Assembly (NCBI GenBank): GCA_030645455.1
Contig: JAUSNA010000031.1
Location: 1-36,114, forward strand
Direction of reading: 5' to 3'
DNA length: 36,114 nt
Source of the DNA: Candidatus Levyibacteriota bacterium
GTDB taxonomy: Bacteria; Patescibacteriota; Microgenomatia; Levybacterales; GWA1-39-11
In this document: positions 16,920 through 29,047 of the stretch, piece by piece
How the letters are laid out: every line of letters begins with the position of its first letter
How positions within the stretch are numbered: position 1 is the first letter of the stretch
The notes under the pieces: generated by a model
Seen by the model: the letters and a program-made list of their open reading frames with translations, nothing else
What the model was told of the DNA's origin: nothing
Database searches by the model: none
Translations under genes and position numbers: made by a program

Positions 16920-17897
16920 TTAGAAGAGGTGACTATCTATAATTCGAGCCCCATCTGAAGGGTCATTTGGGATAATTTTCATAACATACGGCAATTCTTC
17001 GAGTTTTTTAACTAATTTCTCTTCATCCTTTTTCTGGGCAATTAAGTGGATATTTTGCCCCGTATTTAAGGTAAAGTAAACAGACAACCCCTCGCTTCTC
17101 CATACCTTTACAAGCCTCATAATTCTTAAAGTTTCTGGAAGCAAGTATATAAGTGACGGATGGGAAGTAAGCATTATCGAATGTAATTCCAATGCTTCAG
17201 ACTCCAATAACTCACCAAACGCTTCAAAATCTTTTTTTGCGAGAATTTCTTTACATTTTTTAATTTTCTCAGGCATAGCTTTTCTTCTCGCTTCAAAAAA
17301 CTTACTTTCGGAAGCACTTTTCTGCCCTTCGGATGTCGAAACTTCTTTAAACTCAGTACTTACAACCGCAACCACATCAACTATATCCCAGTAATTTTTA
17401 GGGTAAAGAGAATAGGCATAGGACTCCTCGCTGGTATCCCCATCCAACCATTCAACAAAACCATTTGGAATTGATCTGCAGGCAGACCCCGACCCCTGGC
17501 GCGCAAGAATTGAAAGTTCTTTCTCTGAAAGTTTTAGCCCTGCAGCTTTTGTTGCCGCCAAGGTAAGAGCTGCAAATCCCGATGCAGAGGACGATAGTCC
17601 GGTTCCTGAAGGAAAATTATTTTGAGTGACAATCTTAACAGGTAGGCTTAAGTTTGCCAGTTTTCGAACTCTATCAATGTGTGCTATTGCCCGATTGTTT
17701 TTGACATTCTCAGAAACTCCGTTATATAACAATTCGTCTTTTTCAAACTTTGAGGAAAATTCAACCGTTGTTGTAGTCAGAAGGTTTGATAAATTCATCG
17801 AAATACTTCCATTTTCAGGAAGTCTGAGAATCTCATCCTTTCTCCCCCAATATTTAATAAATGCAATATTTGATGGCGCTACACTTGTTGCTTTCAT
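16920..17897 (-). CDS. mvaD: Diphosphomevalonate decarboxylase homologue with altered catalytic Asp
   Basis: This 325-residue GHMP-family protein has the decarboxylase pattern: SNIAFIKYWGRKDEILRLPE (9-28), PSGTGLSSSASGFAALTLAA, then RQGSGSACRSIPNGFVEW with Arg141. The family converts mevalonate diphosphate to IPP with ATP. The normal DAGPN motif with the catalytic Asp reads NTGQN here (N278, codon 17064-17066). It is the last gene of the mevalonate operon and overlaps the previous stop by 4 bp. It may still decarboxylate slowly, or it may act on a different mevalonate phosphate. Confidence 0.9.
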   Translation of the reverse strand: MKATSVAPSNIAFIKYWGRKDEILRLPENGSISMNLSNLLTTTTVEFSSKFEKDELLYNGVSENVKNNRAIAHIDRVRKLANLSLPVKIVTQNNFPSGTGLSSSASGFAALTLAATKAAGLKLSEKELSILARQGSGSACRSIPNGFVEWLDGDTSEESYAYSLYPKNYWDIVDVVAVVSTEFKEVSTSEGQKSASESKFFEARRKAMPEKIKKCKEILAKKDFEAFGELLESEALELHSIMLTSHPSLIYLLPETLRIMRLVKVWRSEGLSVYFTLNTGQNIHLIAQKKDEEKLVKKLEELPYVMKIIPNDPSDGARIIDSHLF

Positions 17898-18394
17898 AGT
17901 ATTCCAAGCTCCTCAAATGTCTTTTGGGCAAAGGGAGTCAGACGGTCAATCATATTTCTAATCTTCTCTCTTGAAAAATACTCAACTTCCTCAACTTCTT
18001 CAGTGTTTAGATGGAATGGACCATCATAATTGGCTGTAAATATCGCGTCAAACTCAGTTTCTAATGGCCCCTCAAAAAACCGTTTTTTTTCAAATTTCAA
18101 AGGAATTTTTATTCCAATCTCCTCATAGATCTCACGATTGGCAGTATCTGTGTATGATTCACCTTTATTCACATGGCCAGATGCACTAACAGTATATAAT
18201 CCAGGATACAAATCTTTTGTCAGGCTTCTTTTTTGAAGTAAAATCTCACCTTTTTTGTTAAAAATAACAATACTTGTACTTCTATGAATAAGGCTTTTGT
18301 CGGTATGACAATCTTTCCTGGTTCTGTAGCCAATAATTTTGTCATTTTTATCAACAACTATAAATAGTTCGTCCTGATTATCTGTTGTTTTCAT
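17894..18394 (-). CDS. Nudix protein of the Idi (IPP isomerase) type
   Basis: The 166-residue protein contains a complete Nudix box, GHVNKGESYTDTAN then REIYEEIGI. Compared with type I IPP isomerase, the five metal ligands are kept: His in KDCHTDK, His in LIHRS, His in SASGH and the Glu pair in LETEF. The catalytic Cys of the CGH motif is Ser (SASGH). Its place between the kinase and decarboxylase genes, with 4-bp overlaps on both sides, indicates work in isoprenoid synthesis. A Nudix hydrolase acting on prenyl or mevalonate phosphates is the alternative. Confidence 0.85.
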   Translation of the reverse strand: MKTTDNQDELFIVVDKNDKIIGYRTRKDCHTDKSLIHRSTSIVIFNKKGEILLQKRSLTKDLYPGLYTVSASGHVNKGESYTDTANREIYEEIGIKIPLKFEKKRFFEGPLETEFDAIFTANYDGPFHLNTEEVEEVEYFSREKIRNMIDRLTPFAQKTFEELGIL

Positions 18395-19365
18395 TTTTCA
18401 ATTCTAACACCTTGGGCATTTGTTTTGACGCTCAAAATCTTTCCTCCAACGCTTACTATTGCATTCTCAACTTTTTTTCGCATCTCTTTTGAAGATAAAG
18501 CAATCATGCAATCCCCACCGCCCGCGCCTGAAAGCTTGGCACCGTACGCCCCACTTGCAACCGATGCACTATTCATGTTGTCGAGCTTTTCTATCGAAAC
18601 CCCCAACGCCTCCAAAAGTCCTTGATTGATATTCATAAGACTTCCTAACTTTGCAAAATCTTGATTTTCTAGTGCAACCCGCGCATCATCAACAATTTTT
18701 CCAATTGCCTTTAGCATCTCATCCTTTAATTCCTCAAGGCCTTTAAATCTTTTTGTTACCGAGTCAATTAACGATACCGTATCTGCCTTTATTCCGCTGT
18801 ATCCAACGATAAGATTCAAGTCAGATATTTTTAGAGGTACAATTTCAGAACCGAATTTTTTGAAATAAATCGTTCCACCGTAAATTGCCGCGGCCACATC
18901 AAACCCCGATCCCTTTCCTTGCACATCAAGAACTGTTTTATAAGAGATATCAAAAATCTGTCGTTGCGAAAGTTTTAATGAAAACAATTCTGAAATGGCT
19001 TTGACCAGACAGACAGTTGAGGCTGATGATGAACCGAACCCGAATTTAGAAGAGAATTCCGAACGCGTTATAACCTTCAAACCTGCAGGTTTTAGATTAT
19101 ATTTACTGATCAAGTTACCGAGTGCAATTTCTATAAACTTCGCGCCCTTAGGGATTTGCCCGACACCCAAATTCTCTATTGGTTTTGTATAATTTGAAAC
19201 TTCAACTTCCGGAGCGTTGAGAACAAACATTCCTGAACTGTTTTTCTCAACAGTCACAAACATCCGTTGGTCAACAGCTGTCACAATACATGGGTGACCA
19301 TACACAACTGCATGCTCACCAAAAAGCATCAATTTCCCGGGCGCGCTCACTGTAATTTTTTTCAT
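18391..19365 (-). CDS. GHMP kinase, probably phosphomevalonate kinase
   Basis: The 324 residues open with APGKLMLFGEHAVVYGHP, typical of mevalonate kinase. The central motifs FGFGSSSASTVCLVKAI (109-123) and VQGKGSGFDVAAAIYGG (148-164) are like bacterial phosphomevalonate kinases. The third GHMP motif is KLSGAGGGDCMIAL. Since the next gene is a more classical mevalonate kinase, I assign this one to the second phosphorylation by elimination. It overlaps both neighbours by 4 bp. The two kinases may have arisen by duplication, and the roles could be reversed. Confidence 0.82.
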   Translation of the reverse strand: MKKITVSAPGKLMLFGEHAVVYGHPCIVTAVDQRMFVTVEKNSSGMFVLNAPEVEVSNYTKPIENLGVGQIPKGAKFIEIALGNLISKYNLKPAGLKVITRSEFSSKFGFGSSSASTVCLVKAISELFSLKLSQRQIFDISYKTVLDVQGKGSGFDVAAAIYGGTIYFKKFGSEIVPLKISDLNLIVGYSGIKADTVSLIDSVTKRFKGLEELKDEMLKAIGKIVDDARVALENQDFAKLGSLMNINQGLLEALGVSIEKLDNMNSASVASGAYGAKLSGAGGGDCMIALSSKEMRKKVENAIVSVGGKILSVKTNAQGVRIEK

Positions 19366-20294
19366 ATGACCTCCAATCTTACACCCTCATTTTCAATTTT
19401 GACATAAAAATAATCCCATTTTTTCCTCTCACACAATGCCTCAACTTTCCTTTTGTTTGAAATCCCGGCAACAATTATTCCCGATCCCTTTTTTATCCCG
19501 CCTCCTCCTGAAATTTTTGCGAATACACCACTATTTTTCAGCTCCAAAATAATGTTTTTTGCAACACTCCCAACTACTCCAATCTTATCCAGATTGGTTT
19601 GGGCCTCAGAAATGCATCTACTGATTACTTCCTTGTTGCCCTGTATCAGCGCTGTTGAAAGATTTTTGGCGACTATTTCCTGCTCTTCGCAAAATGCGCT
19701 AACTTTCTTTTTTTTCATTTTTGAAACCAAAGATACCATCTCTTTGGTAGATTCAATCGGTTTTCCTGAATCAATTACTATAAATTCCGGACAAATTTTT
19801 GCGGAAAGCTCAATTCTTTGAGAAAGTTTGAGACTCTCCGTTTCTTTTCGAAACCATAGGACTCCCCCATAAACACTTGCGGCCAAATCCCCTCCCGAGG
19901 GGTTACCGTGGAAAAAGCGCTCCGACTCATATGCGGCTTCAAAAACCGACCCCAGAGTAAAAGGAATTTTATACAACTTGTGAAAAGCTGCAGAAAGCGC
20001 CGCTGAAAGCGCCGCTGAAGAACCCAATCCCTTTCCGACAGGAATATCGCTTCCTATAATAATACCAACTTTTTCGACGGGAATTTTGTGAACCCTGTGT
20101 AAATATTTTTGGATTGATTCTACTGCCCCCTGCGTTTTTCCCTTGGGTAGATTCTTTAGACTACCCTCTCTCTCAACGCTTACCACAACTCTTCTGTTAA
20201 TTGCCAAAAGAATAGCCGGCTTGCCATAAACTGATGAATGCTCGCCAATTAAATGAATTTTTCCGGGAGCAGAGGCTTTTGCTACTTTTCTCAC
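19362..20294 (-). CDS. mvk: Mevalonate kinase
   Basis: This 310-residue GHMP kinase phosphorylates mevalonate with ATP. Motif 1 is APGKIHLIGEHSSVYGKPA (9-27), motif 2 the ATP loop PVGKGLGSSAALSAAL (85-100), then FHGNPSGGDLAASVYGG with the catalytic Asp136, and motif 3 KISGGGGIKKGSGIIVAG. HGNPSG and PVGKGLGSSAA are standard for mevalonate kinase. It lies in the operon between the DUF35 gene and the second kinase, with 4-bp overlaps. Confidence 0.9.
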   Translation of the reverse strand: MRKVAKASAPGKIHLIGEHSSVYGKPAILLAINRRVVVSVEREGSLKNLPKGKTQGAVESIQKYLHRVHKIPVEKVGIIIGSDIPVGKGLGSSAALSAALSAAFHKLYKIPFTLGSVFEAAYESERFFHGNPSGGDLAASVYGGVLWFRKETESLKLSQRIELSAKICPEFIVIDSGKPIESTKEMVSLVSKMKKKKVSAFCEEQEIVAKNLSTALIQGNKEVISRCISEAQTNLDKIGVVGSVAKNIILELKNSGVFAKISGGGGIKKGSGIIVAGISNKRKVEALCERKKWDYFYVKIENEGVRLEVI

Positions 20295-20599
20295 AGTGGT
20301 CTGAATTTTATCACATAAGATATGACGTCTTTTTTCTCCTCTGTTCTGAGTCTTCTTAAAACAGCAACTACTTTTTGACCAGTTGTTACTTCATCTGCAT
20401 GATAATCGGTCATTTGTCCCATAATTCTCTTTCCATTCACAAGTTTTACAATTGCAACCGGATATGGTGCGTATTGACCAAATCCTGATGGCGCAGCTCT
20501 AACAATAGTCACGCTCTCAACCACTCCTTTTTTTCCAATAAGATTTGAAATTGATTCTTTTCTTCTCCAAATTTTGACTGGTGTTATTTTTACACTCAT
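20291..20599 (-). CDS. DUF35 OB-fold protein without zinc ribbon
   Basis: The 102 residues match the OB-fold half of the DUF35 protein that in archaea bridges acetoacetyl-CoA thiolase and HMG-CoA synthase and holds the shared CoA. Visible parts are VKIWRRKESISNLIG, GVVESVTIVRAAP, YPVAIVKLVNGKRIMGQMTD and VISYVIKFRPL. The archaeal protein has a four-Cys zinc ribbon after the NLIG segment. Here that part is missing, and the protein contains no Cys at all. The gene directly follows thiolase and HMG-CoA synthase with 4-bp overlaps, as expected for a complex. Confidence 0.88.
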   Translation of the reverse strand: MSVKITPVKIWRRKESISNLIGKKGVVESVTIVRAAPSGFGQYAPYPVAIVKLVNGKRIMGQMTDYHADEVTTGQKVVAVLRRLRTEEKKDVISYVIKFRPL

Positions 20600-21744
20600 A
20601 TTCGTAAAATGTGAACGCCCGCAACTGCTCCCGATCCGCCTACATTGTGAGTCAGGCCAATTGTCGCGTTTTTTACTTGGCGTTTTCCCGCAACTCCCTC
20701 AAGCTGCATAGCAATTTCAATAACTTGCTTTATCCCGGTTGCCCCAACAGGATGACCGCATGCTTTGAGCCCCCCTGAAGGATTTATTATCACACCACTG
20801 CTTCCCAAAGTGACTTTACCATTCTTAACGTCTAACACGCCCATTCCTTTTTTTGAAAAGGAAAGGTCTTCAAGAGCAATCGCCTCAGCAATTGAAAAAC
20901 AGTCATGCACTTCGGCTACTGCAACCTCATGAGCCTTGATGCTTGCCTCAGCATATGCTTTTTTAGAAGCACTAACTGCCGACTTAAGTGTTGTCAAATC
21001 TTCCCGTCCGCATAACCCCACGGAGTCGGTCCCCAATTGGCTTGCTACAATTGTTACTCCCTTTGATTTTGCAAGCAATTTAGAGTCCGAGGAGATAATT
21101 ACCGCCGATGCACCATCGCTAATAGGCGAACAATCCAAAAGTTTTAAGGGATCTGATATTCTTGCGCTCTTCATAACCTGCTCAACTGTAATTAAATTTC
21201 TGAATTGGGCTTTGGGATTAAGACTCCCGTGAAAGTGATTTTTCACCGGAATTTCCGCCAGATCTTCCTCGGAAATTCCGTACTTTTTCATATAAGTCTG
21301 CGCGATCAATGCATAAAGACCTGCAAAAGTAATTCCTGAAGCTCGCTCTTCATCGCTCCCGGCAGCCATAAGACCGGCGATAACCTCATCCTGAGTGTGA
21401 TCAGTCATTTTCTCAATTCCCAGAACCATGACCGTCTTGTAAAGACCGGCTTTAACAGACTGAACCGCGTTGTGAAGTGCGACACTCCCTGATGCACATG
21501 CAGCTTCAACCCTCACCGATGGCACCGCAATCCCCAATTCTTCAGCGTAAAAACTAGCTAAATTTGCTTGGTTACCTAAAATCCCGGCCAACATATTCCC
21601 AACGTACAACGCCTCAATTTTTGCAGCCTCGAGCCGTGCTCCTTTTAGTGAATTTAAAAAAACTTCACGCGATAAATCACGTGGCGAGCGGTCCCATAGC
21701 TCCCCGAATTCAGTTGTTGAGTATCCAATTACGCCAATTTTCAT
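20596..21744 (-). CDS. Archaeal-type acetoacetyl-CoA thiolase
   Basis: This 382-residue thiolase of the SCP2/archaeal type condenses two acetyl-CoA. The nucleophile is Cys83 (VEAACASGSVAL). The other active-site motifs are AEVHDCFSIAEA and NPSGGLKACGHPVGATG, with GLTHNVGGSGA near the end. It is placed between HMG-CoA synthase and the DUF35 gene. In archaea these three form one complex that passes the unfavourable acetoacetyl-CoA intermediate directly on. A 4-bp overlap joins each side. Confidence 0.92.
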   Translation of the reverse strand: MKIGVIGYSTTEFGELWDRSPRDLSREVFLNSLKGARLEAAKIEALYVGNMLAGILGNQANLASFYAEELGIAVPSVRVEAACASGSVALHNAVQSVKAGLYKTVMVLGIEKMTDHTQDEVIAGLMAAGSDEERASGITFAGLYALIAQTYMKKYGISEEDLAEIPVKNHFHGSLNPKAQFRNLITVEQVMKSARISDPLKLLDCSPISDGASAVIISSDSKLLAKSKGVTIVASQLGTDSVGLCGREDLTTLKSAVSASKKAYAEASIKAHEVAVAEVHDCFSIAEAIALEDLSFSKKGMGVLDVKNGKVTLGSSGVIINPSGGLKACGHPVGATGIKQVIEIAMQLEGVAGKRQVKNATIGLTHNVGGSGAVAGVHILRI

Positions 21745-22784
21745 AGTAAGTGCAAATAAGTTTTTCTCAAAAAATCTATGTACGAAATGTATTCCGTATT
21801 TTTGCAGAAAGATGCAAATGTTCGCGCTTTTTTTTGTTTTTCCAAAATATTTCTTGTCGTCTCAAAAACAAATGCATCAGACCCGGCCCCTGACCCATAT
21901 GATGCAAAAAATATACGGCTACCCGGCTTTGCAACATCCAAAACTGCGGCAAGACCAGTCAGCGCTGAGGCTGAATACGGATTTCCAATTTCATCAACTA
22001 TTAAAGAGGGGGCTAGTTGCTGCGGGGTAAACCCTAACTCTTTTGCAACGACGCGGGGAAATTTCCCGTTGGGCATATGAAAGACACAATAATCAAAATC
22101 AGACGGTTTGGTGCCCGTTTTTGAAAAAAGTGCTTTTGCTGCCCCCATAACGTGCGCAAAATAAGCAGGCTCACCCGTAAATCTTCCGGCATGAGATGGA
22201 AATTTCATGCCTTCCCTTCTCCAGAAATCAGGAGTGTCTGAAGAAAAAGATAAGCTTCCGGTAATTTTGGCTATTATTTCGTCCTGCTTATTTCCTAAAA
22301 TGTATGCGGCTGCTGCCGAAGCAGCTGTGTACTCAAGAGGGTCGTGAGGTTTGGCCTGAGCCGTATCGCTACCTATAATAAGTCCGTAATCAATTGACTT
22401 ATTTTCCACAAAAGAAGCCGTCAGCTGCATTGCTGCTGTTGCAGCTTTGCAGGCAAATTCAAAATCTGCTGCTGAAAAAAGTCTCCCAACTCCCAAAAAA
22501 TCGGCAATAGTCGTGGATGTTGGATTGACAACATACGGATGACTTTCCGATCCAACAAATACCGCTTGCAGTTTTGATGGAGCAAGACCTGACATGTCCA
22601 GAGCATTTCTTGCTGCCTCAACACCCATGGTTACCGCGTCCTCATCATCATTAGGTACCGCCTTTTGTACAACTTTCAGACCATTGGTAATTTCATCCGG
22701 ATCTTTCTTCCACACGGATGCGATGTCCGCGACTTTAATTCTATAGCGTGGCACATACACACCGTATCCGACGATACCCGTCAC
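21741..22784 (-). CDS. Archaeal-type HMG-CoA synthase
   Basis: This 347-residue synthase of the thiolase superfamily adds acetyl-CoA to acetoacetyl-CoA. The start GIVGYGVYVPRYRI is typical. The catalytic residues appear as Glu80 (VGSESHPYVV), Cys112 (FEFACKAATAAM) and His236 (VFHMPNGKFP). The final segment has SYGSGAGSDAFVF. Its length and motifs match archaeal enzymes, not the longer MvaS of Gram-positive bacteria. The last 30 residues (ARTFASFCKNTEYISYIDF...) are a family-typical tail. It overlaps the reductase and thiolase genes by 4 bp each. Confidence 0.93.
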   Translation of the reverse strand: MTGIVGYGVYVPRYRIKVADIASVWKKDPDEITNGLKVVQKAVPNDDEDAVTMGVEAARNALDMSGLAPSKLQAVFVGSESHPYVVNPTSTTIADFLGVGRLFSAADFEFACKAATAAMQLTASFVENKSIDYGLIIGSDTAQAKPHDPLEYTAASAAAAYILGNKQDEIIAKITGSLSFSSDTPDFWRREGMKFPSHAGRFTGEPAYFAHVMGAAKALFSKTGTKPSDFDYCVFHMPNGKFPRVVAKELGFTPQQLAPSLIVDEIGNPYSASALTGLAAVLDVAKPGSRIFFASYGSGAGSDAFVFETTRNILEKQKKARTFASFCKNTEYISYIDFLRKTYLHLL

Positions 22785-24001
22785 GCTTTTTTTCTCCTTC
22801 CGAGTTTTTGATGTGCTTCTCCAAGAGTCTTGGTCGAAAGTGATGCAAGAAGTGACAACTCGCCGGCAAGAACTGCTCCGATGATACTTCGGGCTAGGTC
22901 ATCTGATCTGGAATTACCGTTTACCCCCATGAGTCTAAGCGCAGCTTTCTGGGTTGGAAGAACCGTTCCGCCACCAACGGTCCCCACAAGAAGAGAAGGA
23001 ATATTGACAGATATATATAGATCCCCTCCTCTTACTTCGCAAGTTGTAATGCCGCAACTCCCCTCAACAACGTGAGCTGGATCCTGACCTGTTGCGATAA
23101 AAACGGCAGAAATCATATTTGCAAAATGAGCGTTAAATCCCAATGAGCCGCTCGCGTATGAGCCTACCATGCACTTTGCAAGCCACGTTGAATATAACGC
23201 CTCTGCATCCGTGTGTAAAATGTCCCTCAAAACCTGCGCTTTTATAACACTCTCAGCCCACGCTTCTTGCCCGCGGCCATCTATAACATTAAGCCACGCA
23301 CTTTTTTTATCAATGTCAAAATTTCCGGCAACGGAAATACATTTGGCACCTGTCTCTTTCTCGATAAGACCAACCAGCACCTCAGTTGCTATGGTTACCA
23401 TATTCATTCCCATCGCGTCTTTCGTATCGAACGAAAACCTTACATAAGTATTTGCGCCGATTACTTTCACTTTAGCCGATAGGTATTTGATGTGAGATGA
23501 AGTTTTGGAGGAGGCAGCCGCAAGCTTTTTAACGTTATTCTCAATCCATTCCTTAAGCTCTATCCCCTTGCTTACACTTTTCGTTGAGAAAACAGGCCCC
23601 CGGGTCTGACCATGAAGTTTTGAATAGACTTTTGCGCCACCGCTTAAAAATATTGCCTTACTGCCCCGGCTCGTTGAGGCAACAAGTGCCCCCTCGGTTG
23701 TCGCCATCGGAATATAAACATCCCTAATTTTTCCGTCATCAAGAATTCGCAAAGGCCCCGCAACTCCGAGGGGAATTTGAGTAGCGCCTATTACATTTTC
23801 GCAATGTACATTCTGATCGTTCTCAATAGAATCACTTTGGAGGATCGACAAATCAATATCGAGTTTTTTTGATAAATATTCTCTGCGCTCTTTGGCTGTT
23901 GGAAAATTTCGTAAACTCACGGGATTTTGCTTACAGAAGGACGCTTTTGTCCTTTTTGCATCGACATAGTATAGCAAATGATTACCTGGAATTCTATTCA
24001 T
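22781..24001 (-). CDS. hmgA: HMG-CoA reductase, class I
   Basis: This 406-residue soluble reductase makes mevalonate from HMG-CoA. Class I marks are ENVIGATQIPLGVAGP (68-83), TTEGALVASTSRG with the catalytic Glu104, and the cofactor motif DAMGMNM (195-201). Lys lies in GNFDIDKKSAW, Asp307 in GQDPAHVVEGS and His397 in GEAHQKLGR. There is no membrane anchor. It is the first gene of the operon. The ATG at 24001 lies just after -10-like boxes, so the mRNA is probably leaderless. The Idi gene diverges 21 bp away. Confidence 0.95.
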   Translation of the reverse strand: MNRIPGNHLLYYVDAKRTKASFCKQNPVSLRNFPTAKERREYLSKKLDIDLSILQSDSIENDQNVHCENVIGATQIPLGVAGPLRILDDGKIRDVYIPMATTEGALVASTSRGSKAIFLSGGAKVYSKLHGQTRGPVFSTKSVSKGIELKEWIENNVKKLAAASSKTSSHIKYLSAKVKVIGANTYVRFSFDTKDAMGMNMVTIATEVLVGLIEKETGAKCISVAGNFDIDKKSAWLNVIDGRGQEAWAESVIKAQVLRDILHTDAEALYSTWLAKCMVGSYASGSLGFNAHFANMISAVFIATGQDPAHVVEGSCGITTCEVRGGDLYISVNIPSLLVGTVGGGTVLPTQKAALRLMGVNGNSRSDDLARSIIGAVLAGELSLLASLSTKTLGEAHQKLGRRKKA

Positions 24002-24022
24002 TTTTACTATACAATACTAAAA
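24002..24022. promoter_or_regulatory. Divergent promoter between HMG-CoA reductase and Idi genes
   Basis: Only 21 bp separate the two start codons. TACAAT (24010-24015) ends 7 nt before the plus-strand ATG. Read on the minus strand, TATTGT (24011-24016) and TATAGT (24006-24011) face the reductase ATG. The sequence TTTTTACTAT...ATACTAAAAA is nearly symmetric. The two -10 elements overlap, so the two RNAs must compete or be controlled together. Confidence 0.55.
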
Positions 24023-24574
24023 ATGAGCATACAAAATTCGTATTATAAAAAAAAGATCACGATCGCCCGGTGTGACAGAAATGGAAATATCTTGGGTGAA
24101 ATCGAAAGATGGGAGGCACACGAGAAAGGGATTCTTCATAGAGCTTTTACAGTTGCACTCTTTTACAAGGAAAAACTTATCGTTCAGCACAGAAAACACC
24201 CGGTTTTTGATGGTGTTTTTGATGTCACCTCCTCCTCACACCAAGTATATTCCAAGGGAGTTCTCCAAGACACAATTGAAGCAACGTATCTCACGCTTGA
24301 ACGCGAATGGGATATAAAAAAATCAGATCTGATAAAACTTCCGAAGGATTTAGGAACAATCTATTATAAAGCGCGTGACACTCATAGTATTTATACTGAG
24401 CATGAGGTATGCAACGTAGTCGTTGCAACGGTTAAAAAATTACCTGAAATAGTTGAAGAAGTATCGTACGGATATTCACTCGCATCCAAGAAAGAACTTT
24501 CGGACCGCACTTCCCGCTTATACAACAATCTCGCACCTTGGGTAAAAGCCATGTTAGAAAAAAACCTCTTATAA
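24023..24574 (+). CDS. idi: Type I IPP isomerase homologue with Ser for catalytic Cys
   Basis: From the ATG at 24023 the 183-residue protein follows E. coli Idi along its length. His in ERWEAHE, His in LHRAF, His in SSSHQ, the Glu pair in TEHEVC and Trp in APWVKAM are all kept; the His and Glu residues form the metal site. The catalytic Cys of the family's CGH motif is Ser (SSSH). The Nudix box is degenerate, as in Idi. The family converts IPP to DMAPP. It diverges from the mevalonate operon and shares its promoter region. The longer frame from 23978 would cross the promoter. Confidence 0.88.
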   Translation: MSIQNSYYKKKITIARCDRNGNILGEIERWEAHEKGILHRAFTVALFYKEKLIVQHRKHPVFDGVFDVTSSSHQVYSKGVLQDTIEATYLTLEREWDIKKSDLIKLPKDLGTIYYKARDTHSIYTEHEVCNVVVATVKKLPEIVEEVSYGYSLASKKELSDRTSRLYNNLAPWVKAMLEKNLL

Positions 24575-24608: not shown

Positions 24609-24631
24609 AAACCTAACTTTCCTATAGGTTT
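24609..24631 (+). terminator. Weak terminator-like hairpin after the Idi gene
   Basis: AAACCTA (24609-24615) pairs with TAGGTTT (24625-24631), followed by AAATTTTT. The stem is short and AT-rich. Confidence 0.3.
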
Positions 24632-24686
24632 AAATTTTTGCCTATAAATGATATAATTTCTAAGTAATTTGCGGTTTTATAGGAAA
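24618..24686 (+). promoter_or_regulatory. Promoter of GC-rich cassette 1 with possible operators
   Basis: TTTAAA (24629-24634), a 17-bp spacer and a perfect TATAAT (24652-24657) with extended TG. Around it lie TTTCCTATA (24618-24626), CCTATA (24641-24646) and the inverse TATAGGAAA (24678-24686). The repeated motif on both sides of the promoter could bind a repressor. The leader to the first gene would be about 148 nt. Confidence 0.5.
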
Positions 24687-24744
24687 TTTGCTTACCTAGC
24701 GCAATCGCAAAAGCACATTGAAATGTTGCGGAAATAATTTTTGG

Positions 24745-24787
24745 TTGCTACCGCTTTTGGTATTATTAGTGCCCGAAGCGGTAGCAA
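24745..24787 (+). promoter_or_regulatory. Hairpin in the leader of cassette 1
   Basis: TTGCTACCGCTT (24745-24756) pairs perfectly with AAGCGGTAGCAA (24776-24787) around a 19-nt loop. No T run follows, so it is not an ordinary terminator. It ends 24 nt before the first start codon. Confidence 0.6.
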
Positions 24788-24811
24788 ATCAGAAAACCGG
24801 AAAGGAAGAAA

Positions 24812-25027
24812 GTGAATACATCAGCTATCCAAAAAGTCCCAGCGGGCACGAAAGTGAAATGTGCCCACTGCAACGAAAACGGCGTCTGGAAATGGTGCAC
24901 CAGGTGCATGATCTCCTTCTTGGAGACCCCTACGCCTGTTTGCCCCGATGCAGACAACGATCACGAGAGGCATAACACGCGTCTCACAGAACCTTCCCGA
25001 TGGACTCCCGGGGACCACGCAAGTTGA
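24812..25027 (+). CDS. Small zinc-ribbon protein (cassette 1, gene 1)
   Basis: The 71 residues contain C17-x2-C20-x8-C29-x2-C32 (KCAHCNENGVWKWCTRCM), a plausible zinc ribbon, and a hydrophilic tail without structure. GTG 24812 follows AAGGAAG. The stop TGA overlaps the next ATG by one base (TGATG), which suggests coupled translation. Base composition is clearly richer in G and C than the flanking genes. The family is unknown. A protein-, RNA- or DNA-binding ribbon is a guess from the Cys pattern only. Confidence 0.6.
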   Translation: MNTSAIQKVPAGTKVKCAHCNENGVWKWCTRCMISFLETPTPVCPDADNDHERHNTRLTEPSRWTPGDHAS

Positions 25028-25212
25028 TGACCAACACACTTCGCGACAATCTCGAGCGCATCTTCTTAACCCTAAAGGGAAGCGAAGGATGGATGACCCA
25101 CCCCAACAGTGAGCTCGACGGTGAAACACCGGATTCCTTGGTCAAAAGGGGCGAGGAGGACAAGGTCCTTAAGGTTCTTAAGTCCCAAATGGGATTCTGG
25201 ATCAACCACTAG
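25027..25212 (+). CDS. Small protein like an antitoxin MbcA/ParS domain (cassette 1, gene 2)
   Basis: From the ATG at 25027 the 61 residues contain GWMTHPNSELDGETPDSLVK. This matches the W-x3-PN-x2-L-x-G-x-TP-x2-L pattern of the MbcA/ParS/Xre-antitoxin toxin-binding domain (DUF2384). The Xre-type DNA-binding part and a RES-type toxin gene are absent, so it is a lone domain. It is coupled to gene 1 by TGATG. GC-rich codon use is unlike the neighbouring dnaX and idi. It could be a stand-alone regulator; a toxin-antitoxin role is not shown. Confidence 0.6.
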   Translation: MTNTLRDNLERIFLTLKGSEGWMTHPNSELDGETPDSLVKRGEEDKVLKVLKSQMGFWINH

Positions 25213-25224
25213 TAAGGAGGTGAC

Positions 25225-25416
25225 ATGACCGACATCAAAAACCTCTCGCAAGAACGAGCGCTTGAAGCCCATCGAGGACCGCCACTCTACGCCCGCAATC
25301 CCGACTGCGCACTTTGTGACGCGTCCGGATTGCACTATTCCGAGGACGGAGAACCAACGTACTGCATGTGCATGTACGAAGCAAAGCTTCCCTCATGGGC
25401 GCGCCGAAAGGCATAG
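25225..25416 (+). CDS. Small Cys-rich protein (cassette 1, gene 3)
   Basis: The 63 residues contain C28-x2-C31 and C47-x-C49 (CALCDASG ... YCMCMY), a probable zinc site. The site AAGGAGGTGAC directly before the ATG is a near-perfect Shine-Dalgarno sequence, stronger than at almost any other gene here. The segment GPPLYARNPDCALC...TYCMC resembles the C-terminal part of gene 4, so the two are probably paralogues. There is no membrane span or signal peptide. Function is unknown. Confidence 0.6.
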   Translation: MTDIKNLSQERALEAHRGPPLYARNPDCALCDASGLHYSEDGEPTYCMCMYEAKLPSWARRKA

Positions 25417-25470
25417 CCCAAAAAAGGGATCACACTTTCCCATCCGGGAAGAAAGGACAGGGTCAACACC

Positions 25471-25731
25471 ATGCCATTTTGGAACAAGAAAAAGGAGCCT
25501 GCGGTAACCGCTGCTCCCCAGAAGGCAACAACACCGACACCTAGTATCCAACCAGCCACCGAGTGGTTGGATCCACCACCGGGAGCGACAGAGAAGGAAC
25601 TCCTCGACGGTCGTGACGGTCCGGCGTACGGAGCCAATTCCGCACACAAGTGCGGAGGGTTCATGCGCAACGCAGAGGGAAAAGTGGTTTACTGCTTCTG
25701 TCGTCTCATGAAGATGAGCAACGGGAGGTAG
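25471..25731 (+). CDS. Small Cys-containing protein with disordered N-terminus (cassette 1, gene 4)
   Basis: The 86 residues begin with a basic, Pro/Thr/Ala-rich part (MPFWNKKKEPAVTAAPQKAT). They end with a domain similar to gene 3: DGPAYGANSAHKCGGFMRN, then KVVYCFCRLM. The first Cys of the pair is missing; His59-x-Cys61 could replace it, with C75-x-C77 as the second half. A purine-rich stretch upstream (GGGAAGAAAGGACAGGG) serves as ribosome site. It is the last gene before the terminator. Function is unknown. Confidence 0.55.
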   Translation: MPFWNKKKEPAVTAAPQKATTPTPSIQPATEWLDPPPGATEKELLDGRDGPAYGANSAHKCGGFMRNAEGKVVYCFCRLMKMSNGR

Positions 25732-25770
25732 GGCGTATCACTTTCCACAAATTCTCCGCAACAAAACCTA

Positions 25771-25799
25771 GGGCCGCCCCCATCCGGGCGGCCCTTTTT
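25771..25799 (+). terminator. Rho-independent terminator of cassette 1
   Basis: GGGCCGCCC (25771-25779) pairs perfectly with GGGCGGCCC (25786-25794) around CCATCC and is followed by TTTTT. It lies 40 bp after gene 4. It is also 22 bp from the dnaX stop on the other strand and could act both ways. Confidence 0.88.
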
Positions 25800-28275: not shown

Positions 28276-28304
28276 TTGATCTTGTAAAAAACGAGGCGTA
28301 TAAT
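28276..28304 (+). promoter_or_regulatory. Promoter of GC-rich cassette 2
   Basis: TTGATC (28276-28281), a 17-bp spacer and a perfect TATAAT (28299-28304). Predicted RNA start near 28311. No protein gene of normal size follows for 740 bp on this strand. Confidence 0.65.
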
Positions 28305-28421
28305 TGCCGTAACTGAAGTTCAAAGGCCTTTGCCTTTGAGCACAGTTGTTCTTTGACTTTATTGTTCATGTTCCACCCGGCTTGCCGGGTGTTGCAGTTG
28401 ATTACACTCTGGAGGTTGTTC

Positions 28422-28478
28422 ATGAAGGACACGACCGGGCTGTTCGGTGATAGGGGGCCTCCGGGCTCCGCATCCTAA
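28422..28478 (+). CDS. Micro-ORF 1 of cassette 2 (18 residues)
   Basis: The ATG lies 6 nt after GGAGG (28411-28415). The peptide is MKDTTGLFGDRGPPGSAS. Just upstream is the hairpin CACCCGG/CCGGGTG. The stop overlaps the first base of the ACCGC/GCGGT hairpin. It is too short for a family assignment. Confidence 0.4.
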   Translation: MKDTTGLFGDRGPPGSAS

Positions 28479-28749
28479 CCGCACACGCGGTCACAACCAA
28501 GTGCAGGGCAACTTCCCTGTAACCGAGTGCCGGGGCAGTACGCACCCACCCAAGCGGCCAATTTGCCGACTATTTGCCCTAGTGGGTTATGGGTTGCGCT
28601 TCTCCCCCGAATGAGATGGATCACCGGCCTCTGGCCGGGCCTCCCGTTTGTCGGTGAGGGGGGTGCCCCGTAGTACCCCCTCACCGAATATCAACTGCAG
28701 TCAGGCAGCTCCTGACACCTTACAAGGCAAACCCAGGAGGGTTACCAAC

Positions 28750-28782
28750 ATGACGAAGTTCACGACCTCGACCTTCACCTAA
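28750..28782 (+). CDS. Micro-ORF 2 of cassette 2 (10 residues, Thr-rich)
   Basis: The ATG lies 9 nt after AGGAGG (28735-28740). The peptide MTKFTTSTFT has five Thr in ten residues, then TAA. Strong hairpins follow. Such a layout is known from attenuator leader peptides, but no threonine gene is near. Confidence 0.4.
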   Translation: MTKFTTSTFT

Positions 28783-28936
28783 CGCTGGCGATGTCGGCCG
28801 CCGCACGCCATGCGGCAGCAAACTGCCCCCACGCGGGGCACAACAGTTAACGACGAGGCTTCCCGTCCGTAAGTCTGACATTGCGCGCAGATACTCCGGA
28901 CACCGGAAGAGACACCTATGGTGCCACCCCGTCCCC

Positions 28937-28965
28937 GTCCGGGCGGCTCTCAGAGCCGCCCGGAC
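28937..28965 (+). terminator. Terminator-like hairpin at the end of cassette 2
   Basis: GTCCGGGCGGCTCT (28937-28950) pairs perfectly with AGAGCCGCCCGGAC (28952-28965). The tract after it (ATTCCATTT) is only partly T-rich. It shares the 10-mer TCCGGGCGGC with the cassette 1 terminator. Confidence 0.6.
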
Positions 28966-29047
28966 ATTCCATTTATCCCACAACAACCCGCGACCTAATC
29001 TCAAAATTTGAAAAAATATAAAAATTCAGAAGATCAATCTACCAAAA

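Follow-up and report, generated by a model that had tools for sequence, protein, structure and literature searches.

The four-gene, GC-rich block at 24618-25799 of the window (the whole 36,114-nt stretch of DNA analysed) carries a boxA-like site in its leader, followed directly by a strand that has an exact complement in the trailer. These two elements, both missing from the original prediction, are the main finding of this analysis. A promoter, a boxA-like site, a trailer-complementary strand, a hairpin, GC-rich ORFs led by Shine-Dalgarno sites and a terminator recur together in many units with unrelated cargo, and the leader and trailer of rRNA type are the common feature that unites them. 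Judged by its sequence, the block (cassette 1) probably belongs to a dispersed class of transcription units that are built like an rRNA operon and have accessory small proteins, mostly orphans, as their cargo.

Architecture of Cassette 1

Cassette 1 lies on the forward strand of a 1.2-Mb source genome (82 contigs, 38.7% GC; Patescibacteria-like by its size and relatives) and, read directly from the sequence, is composed of a leader, small ORFs, a trailer and a terminator. The upstream promoter element CCTATAGGTTT (24621-24631) is situated 31 nt 5' of an extended -10 box, TGATATAAT (24649-24657). Consensus scoring places the boxA-like element AGCACATTGAAAT at 24712-24724, where the genome's own 16S leader has AGCACATTAACC. 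At the very end of boxA, in a boxC-like position, begins the strand TGTTGCGGA (24724-24732), which over 9 nt is the perfect complement of TCCGCAACA (25755-25763) in the trailer. The leader next contains a 12-bp hairpin (24745-24787), in which 24745-24756 pairs with 24776-24787.

ORF1 (24812-25027, 71 aa) opens with a GTG start (GGAAAGGAAGAAAGTG) and encodes two CxxC pairs with further Cys and His residues. A TGATG overlap couples it to ORF2 (25027-25212, 61 aa), which is ParS_C-like. ORF3 (25225-25416, 63 aa; AAGGAGGTGACATG) has the arrangement CxxC...YCxC. The C-terminal YCxC part of ORF4 (25471-25731, 86 aa) aligns weakly with ORF3, of which ORF4 may possibly be a paralogue on this likeness. 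The intrinsic terminator AGGGCCGCCC...GGGCGGCCCT-T5 (25770-25799) consists of a perfect hairpin (25770-25795) followed by T5. The extended -10 box, the 12-bp leader hairpin, the TGATG coupling, the perfect terminator and the four small ORFs, each behind a good Shine-Dalgarno site, had all been predicted, and each is present on direct reading.

Composition and the Class of GC-Rich Cassettes

ORF1 to ORF4 have GC contents of 0.55, 0.51, 0.57 and 0.57, against a genome mean of 0.387; host genes average 0.39 (SD 0.044, n = 814), with a GC3 of 0.34. The idea of a compositionally foreign small-protein cassette is borne out by this difference (51-57% against 38.7%). High expression was considered as the source of the cassette GC and rejected, since EF-Tu, S12, GroEL, DnaK and RpoC have a host-like GC3 of 0.29-0.35. 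When the six frames were compared using a codon model trained on other GC-rich cassettes, all four ORFs scored highest in their own frame, ORF1 only weakly.

In the 0.91 Mb of the genome that was read (roughly 76%), about 20 GC-rich islands were found. Some of these are rRNA or repeat-rich native genes; 15 are self-contained units of orphan or sporadic genes with unrelated cargo, which elsewhere in the genome includes GAPDH, a DUF6166 protein, an AsnC-type domain and an alpha-CTD protein. The last of these, at 11895-12857 of L005, carries an RNA polymerase alpha C-terminal domain (PF03118, E = 3.3e-9) outside RpoA. Two other genomes, G003 and G005, contain similar islands, 0.12-0.2 over their own GC. 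One G003 cassette (L147, 9350-10550) has two small genes that start alike (VARIVE.. and VARVIG..), a pair that resembles the ORF3/ORF4 layout of cassette 1.

Several cassette-type units carry the promoter element CCTATAGKTT about 31 nt 5' of the -10 box. The pattern CC/CT-N-ATAG-G/T-TT with a -10 box precedes L094b, L126, L180, L183, L199, L200 and L174 of G005, all of which have a boxA, and is also found at about five non-cassette sites. Matches to the cassette 1 hairpin elsewhere in the genome are at chance level. Rfam recognized only rRNA and tRNA among the GC-rich units, and none of its families in the window.

boxA-Like Sites in the Leaders

Comparison of the leaders revealed a recurrent AGYACATTAACAA-like word, which matches both the genome's own 16S leader and the 16S boxA of G003, GCTCTTTAAAAA. 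The gammaproteobacterial consensus is GYTCTTTAANA (PMC5725501); the boxA of cassette 1 has three mismatches to it and one mismatch to the own 16S site within GCACATTAA. Using a consensus restricted to rRNA leaders (E. coli, own 16S and G003 16S), 11 of the 15 cassette leaders reached at least 12/13, compared with 3 of 164 ordinary leaders (Mann-Whitney p = 1.7e-6). A wider consensus, drawn partly from these same cassettes, gave 12/15 against 6/164. The exact E. coli boxA sequence also scored higher in cassette leaders than in ordinary ones (p = 5e-4). Cassette 1 itself reaches 12/13 under the wide consensus and 11/13 under the rRNA-only one, and several of the 15 cassettes are without a good boxA or without a good helix. 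NusB is encoded in the genome (E = 2.2e-22, above the cut-off, as a partial domain match).

The Leader-Trailer Helix

When the minimum-energy fold is predicted for the 1,135-nt transcript, 24724-24732 stays paired with 25755-25763. In this fold prediction only, a second segment of 8-11 bp joins the ORF1 start region (24808-24819) to a complementary trailer stretch (25735-25745). In eight cassettes, the helix begins 11-14 nt past the start of boxA. It measures 9 bp in cassette 1 and 9-16 bp in others. Its sequence varies among cassettes yet remains self-complementary, a compensatory pattern. The 9 bp of cassette 1 fall below the more than 17 bp required for E. coli 30S formation.

Among the cassettes of the source genome, the own leader-trailer pairs summed to -229 kcal/mol against -161 (SD 10) when re-paired, a value attained in none of 50,000 trials; in an earlier version of this test the trailer limits had been set by eye. 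The leader window of L008 was lengthened once a match had been noticed. A boundary-only form of the test was weaker, being significant in the source genome (28/20,000) and not in G003. RNAduplex across whole leaders was uninformative. In several cassettes of other genomes (L194, L200, L204 and L206), the trailer complements boxA itself as well as the strand 3' of it.

Independent scans gave similar units. A scan of the 0.91 Mb that required boxA, an adjacent strand, its complement and a hairpin returned four matches (decoy mean 0.28, maximum 3): cassette 1, L079, L094 and L008, all of them GC-rich cassettes. The leader-only pattern GYWCWTTRANAA-N0-5-TTGCGGAAAT matched five times across 373 genomes, and its reversed control never. 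Three of the five lie outside the source genome, and all three are small-gene cassettes: L181 has a CAP-domain gene and L183 a small membrane-like protein, with trailer complements of 11 and 13 nt, respectively, beside their terminators, and L180 is a run of small genes on a contig that stops before any trailer. With a looser pattern, the matches numbered 33, and about 10 in the control. At 29 loci outside the source genome, a set that includes chance matches, the leader-downstream pairing was 804 against 726 (SD 17) for re-paired sequences (0/20,000). A partial search of the literature brought up neither orphan islands in Patescibacteria nor a boxA there, nor leader-trailer helices around protein genes.

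Genomic Setting

Beside dnaX, seven genomes of the same family have no cassette. Most of these place dnaX next to a ybaB-like gene and rpsU close to a HIT gene; in the source genome, GC-rich units adjoin dnaX and separate rpsU from HIT, all four names being readings from the sequences. The nearest relatives belong to different genera, with dnaX about 50% identical, and so offer no precise empty site. Directly upstream of cassette 1, the window holds a run of genes that resembles a mevalonate pathway cluster by sequence (16920-24574: kinases and decarboxylase-like, idi-like and HMG-CoA synthase- and reductase-like genes), and relatives have prs and ybaB near dnaX instead of this run.

A GC-rich GAPDH copy (GC 0.57) is 43% identical to another GAPDH in the source genome, and this second copy makes at least one GC-rich unit look imported. 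The extra gene, at 611-1633 of L004, sits in a cassette with a boxA-like AGCACATGAACAA and an 11-nt leader-trailer complement. Islands 0.12-0.2 above host GC occur in three genera of differing GC, and this makes a single, recent donor of high GC less likely. Horizontal import of cassette 1 is plausible on its composition. It had been described as horizontally acquired or mobile; the foreign composition holds, and as for mobility, neither a recombinase such as an integrase nor a target duplication was seen near the cassette.

The last result also bears on another reading of the paired strands, namely that they are DNA recombination ends, comparable to attC sites or terminal inverted repeats, between which a recombinase or transposase inserted mobile cargo. 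The breaking of conserved family neighbourhoods by cassettes of foreign composition agrees with this, as does the variation of cargo behind related leaders: L083 (8950-9350) and L181 (1388-1797) belong to two genera and are alike in leader and signal peptide (69% over 420 nt, E = 6e-31), and their mature proteins are unrelated despite this common start, as if cargo had been swapped behind a fixed front end. However, the strands lie inside the transcript, past boxA and before the terminator and not at the edges, their sequences vary among cassettes of one genome, and the adjacency to boxA is left unexplained, which makes recombination ends an unlikely account.

The Four Proteins

The Cys pairs noted originally are present in ORF1, ORF3 and ORF4, and at least these three proteins are probably metal-binding. 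Homologues were sought in the source genome itself, in genomes of relatives, of the class and of the phylum, and in viral contigs, phages, plasmids and genome contigs, with some of the ORFs in each case, and the matches were chance ones only. No homologue was found for ORF1 in viral contigs or plasmids, for ORF2 in 286 genomes of the phylum, for ORF3 among 147 related genomes or for ORF4 in 373 genomes of the class, and ORF3 and ORF4 had no match in phage records. Single-sequence structure models were of poor quality and gave no PDB match. Pfam, PHROGs, PADLOC and NCBIfam yielded a weak ParS_C match of ORF2 only (PF09722, E = 4.6e-4; 20.6 bits, under the Pfam gathering score of 24.5). ORF2 shares 35% identity over 51 aa with a GC-rich cassette protein of G003, the only relative of 147 with a PF09722 match.

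An antitoxin-like system, suggested by the domain noted originally, found no support. Residues 20-41 of ORF2 resemble the C-terminal domain of the Xre/MbcA/ParS antitoxins (PF09722, NF049845), but this 61-aa protein stays below the cut-off and lacks the Xre helix-turn-helix, and a RES-type or other recognisable toxin partner is missing. A toxin-antitoxin reading is thus not supported, given the sub-threshold PF09722 score and no toxin or PADLOC family match in the four proteins. The same results weigh on a broader reading, that of an ordinary small-protein or antitoxin-like operon of horizontal origin that has a promoter and a terminator of its own, in which the likeness to boxA would be incidental. 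The GC and GC3 far from those of the host, the ParS_C-like ORF2 and the absence from relatives would all fit such an operon. It is nevertheless improbable, because boxA and helix are common to cassettes with unrelated cargo at strong significance.

A Second Unit in the Window

Between rpsU and the HIT gene lies a second GC-rich unit on the forward strand (28299-28985, GC up to 0.62), with a TATAAT promoter, the boxA-like TGTTCTTTGACTT (28347-28359), strong hairpins and a perfect terminator (28937-28965). Its helix is weaker than that of cassette 1, and no forward-strand ORF of more than 18 aa led by a Shine-Dalgarno site was recognised in it. The unit is a probable sibling of cassette 1 and possibly a structured RNA or micropeptide unit. 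That the units in general are chiefly structured RNAs with secondary or spurious short ORFs, as this boxA-bearing unit might suggest, is very unlikely in view of the strong Shine-Dalgarno sites, the in-frame codon bias and the recognisable domains of other units (CAP, DUF6166, AsnC, alpha-CTD).

Relation to Known Systems and Proposed Mechanism

The cassettes share with the bacterial rRNA operon (boxA, boxC and leader-trailer helix; rrnTAC) a boxA followed by a trailer-pairing strand, flanking a GC-rich insert. The own 16S unit, read by eye, combines its boxA with about 22 bp of leader-trailer pairing. The cassettes differ in that the insert consists of small protein genes with Shine-Dalgarno sites and matches no rRNA or other Rfam family, the helix is shorter, the intrinsic terminator follows directly and no boxB was identified.

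Phage morons are autonomous gene cassettes with their own promoter and terminator, foreign composition and variable cargo, features that the present cassettes also have. Unlike morons, the latter sit between chromosomal housekeeping genes and have an rRNA-type leader, and ORF3 and ORF4 are unmatched among phages. Another parallel is offered by the boxA-regulated mRNAs (suhB, ParE-like toxin genes), in which the 5' leader of a protein-coding transcript likewise contains a boxA, which in suhB represses translation near the start codon; the part of the source consulted treats single loci and describes no trailer complement (PMC5725501), whereas the cassettes form a dispersed class.

For the E. 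coli pre-16S rRNA, Warner and others report that boxC comes after boxA and pairs with the trailer, and they discuss the idea that a boxA tethered to NusB promotes the leader-trailer helix (PMC10250234). By analogy, a nascent cassette boxA may recruit NusB-S10 and other Nus factors, which would keep RNA polymerase processive across the GC-rich, possibly Rho-sensitive sequence and hold the leader tethered. The emerging trailer would then pair with the leader strand and close the mRNA into a loop before termination. Such a loop could yield an end-protected, abundant messenger, with ORF1 to ORF4 as its cargo of accessory small proteins.

The coupling of a leader-trailer helix to boxA is a known feature of rRNA precursors. 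It is quite conceivable, if short of probable, that in Patescibacteria of this class antitermination of the rRNA type, together with closed-loop mRNAs, serves as a general expression chassis for interchangeable, unrelated small orphan genes, a unit previously undescribed. If boxA-coupled leader-trailer helices surround protein genes many times per genome and in several families of small-genome bacteria, the rRNA transcription machinery would serve a second class of clients, overlooked small proteins could be found and annotated from their leaders alone, and the cassettes would offer a natural test case for closed-loop mRNA in bacteria.
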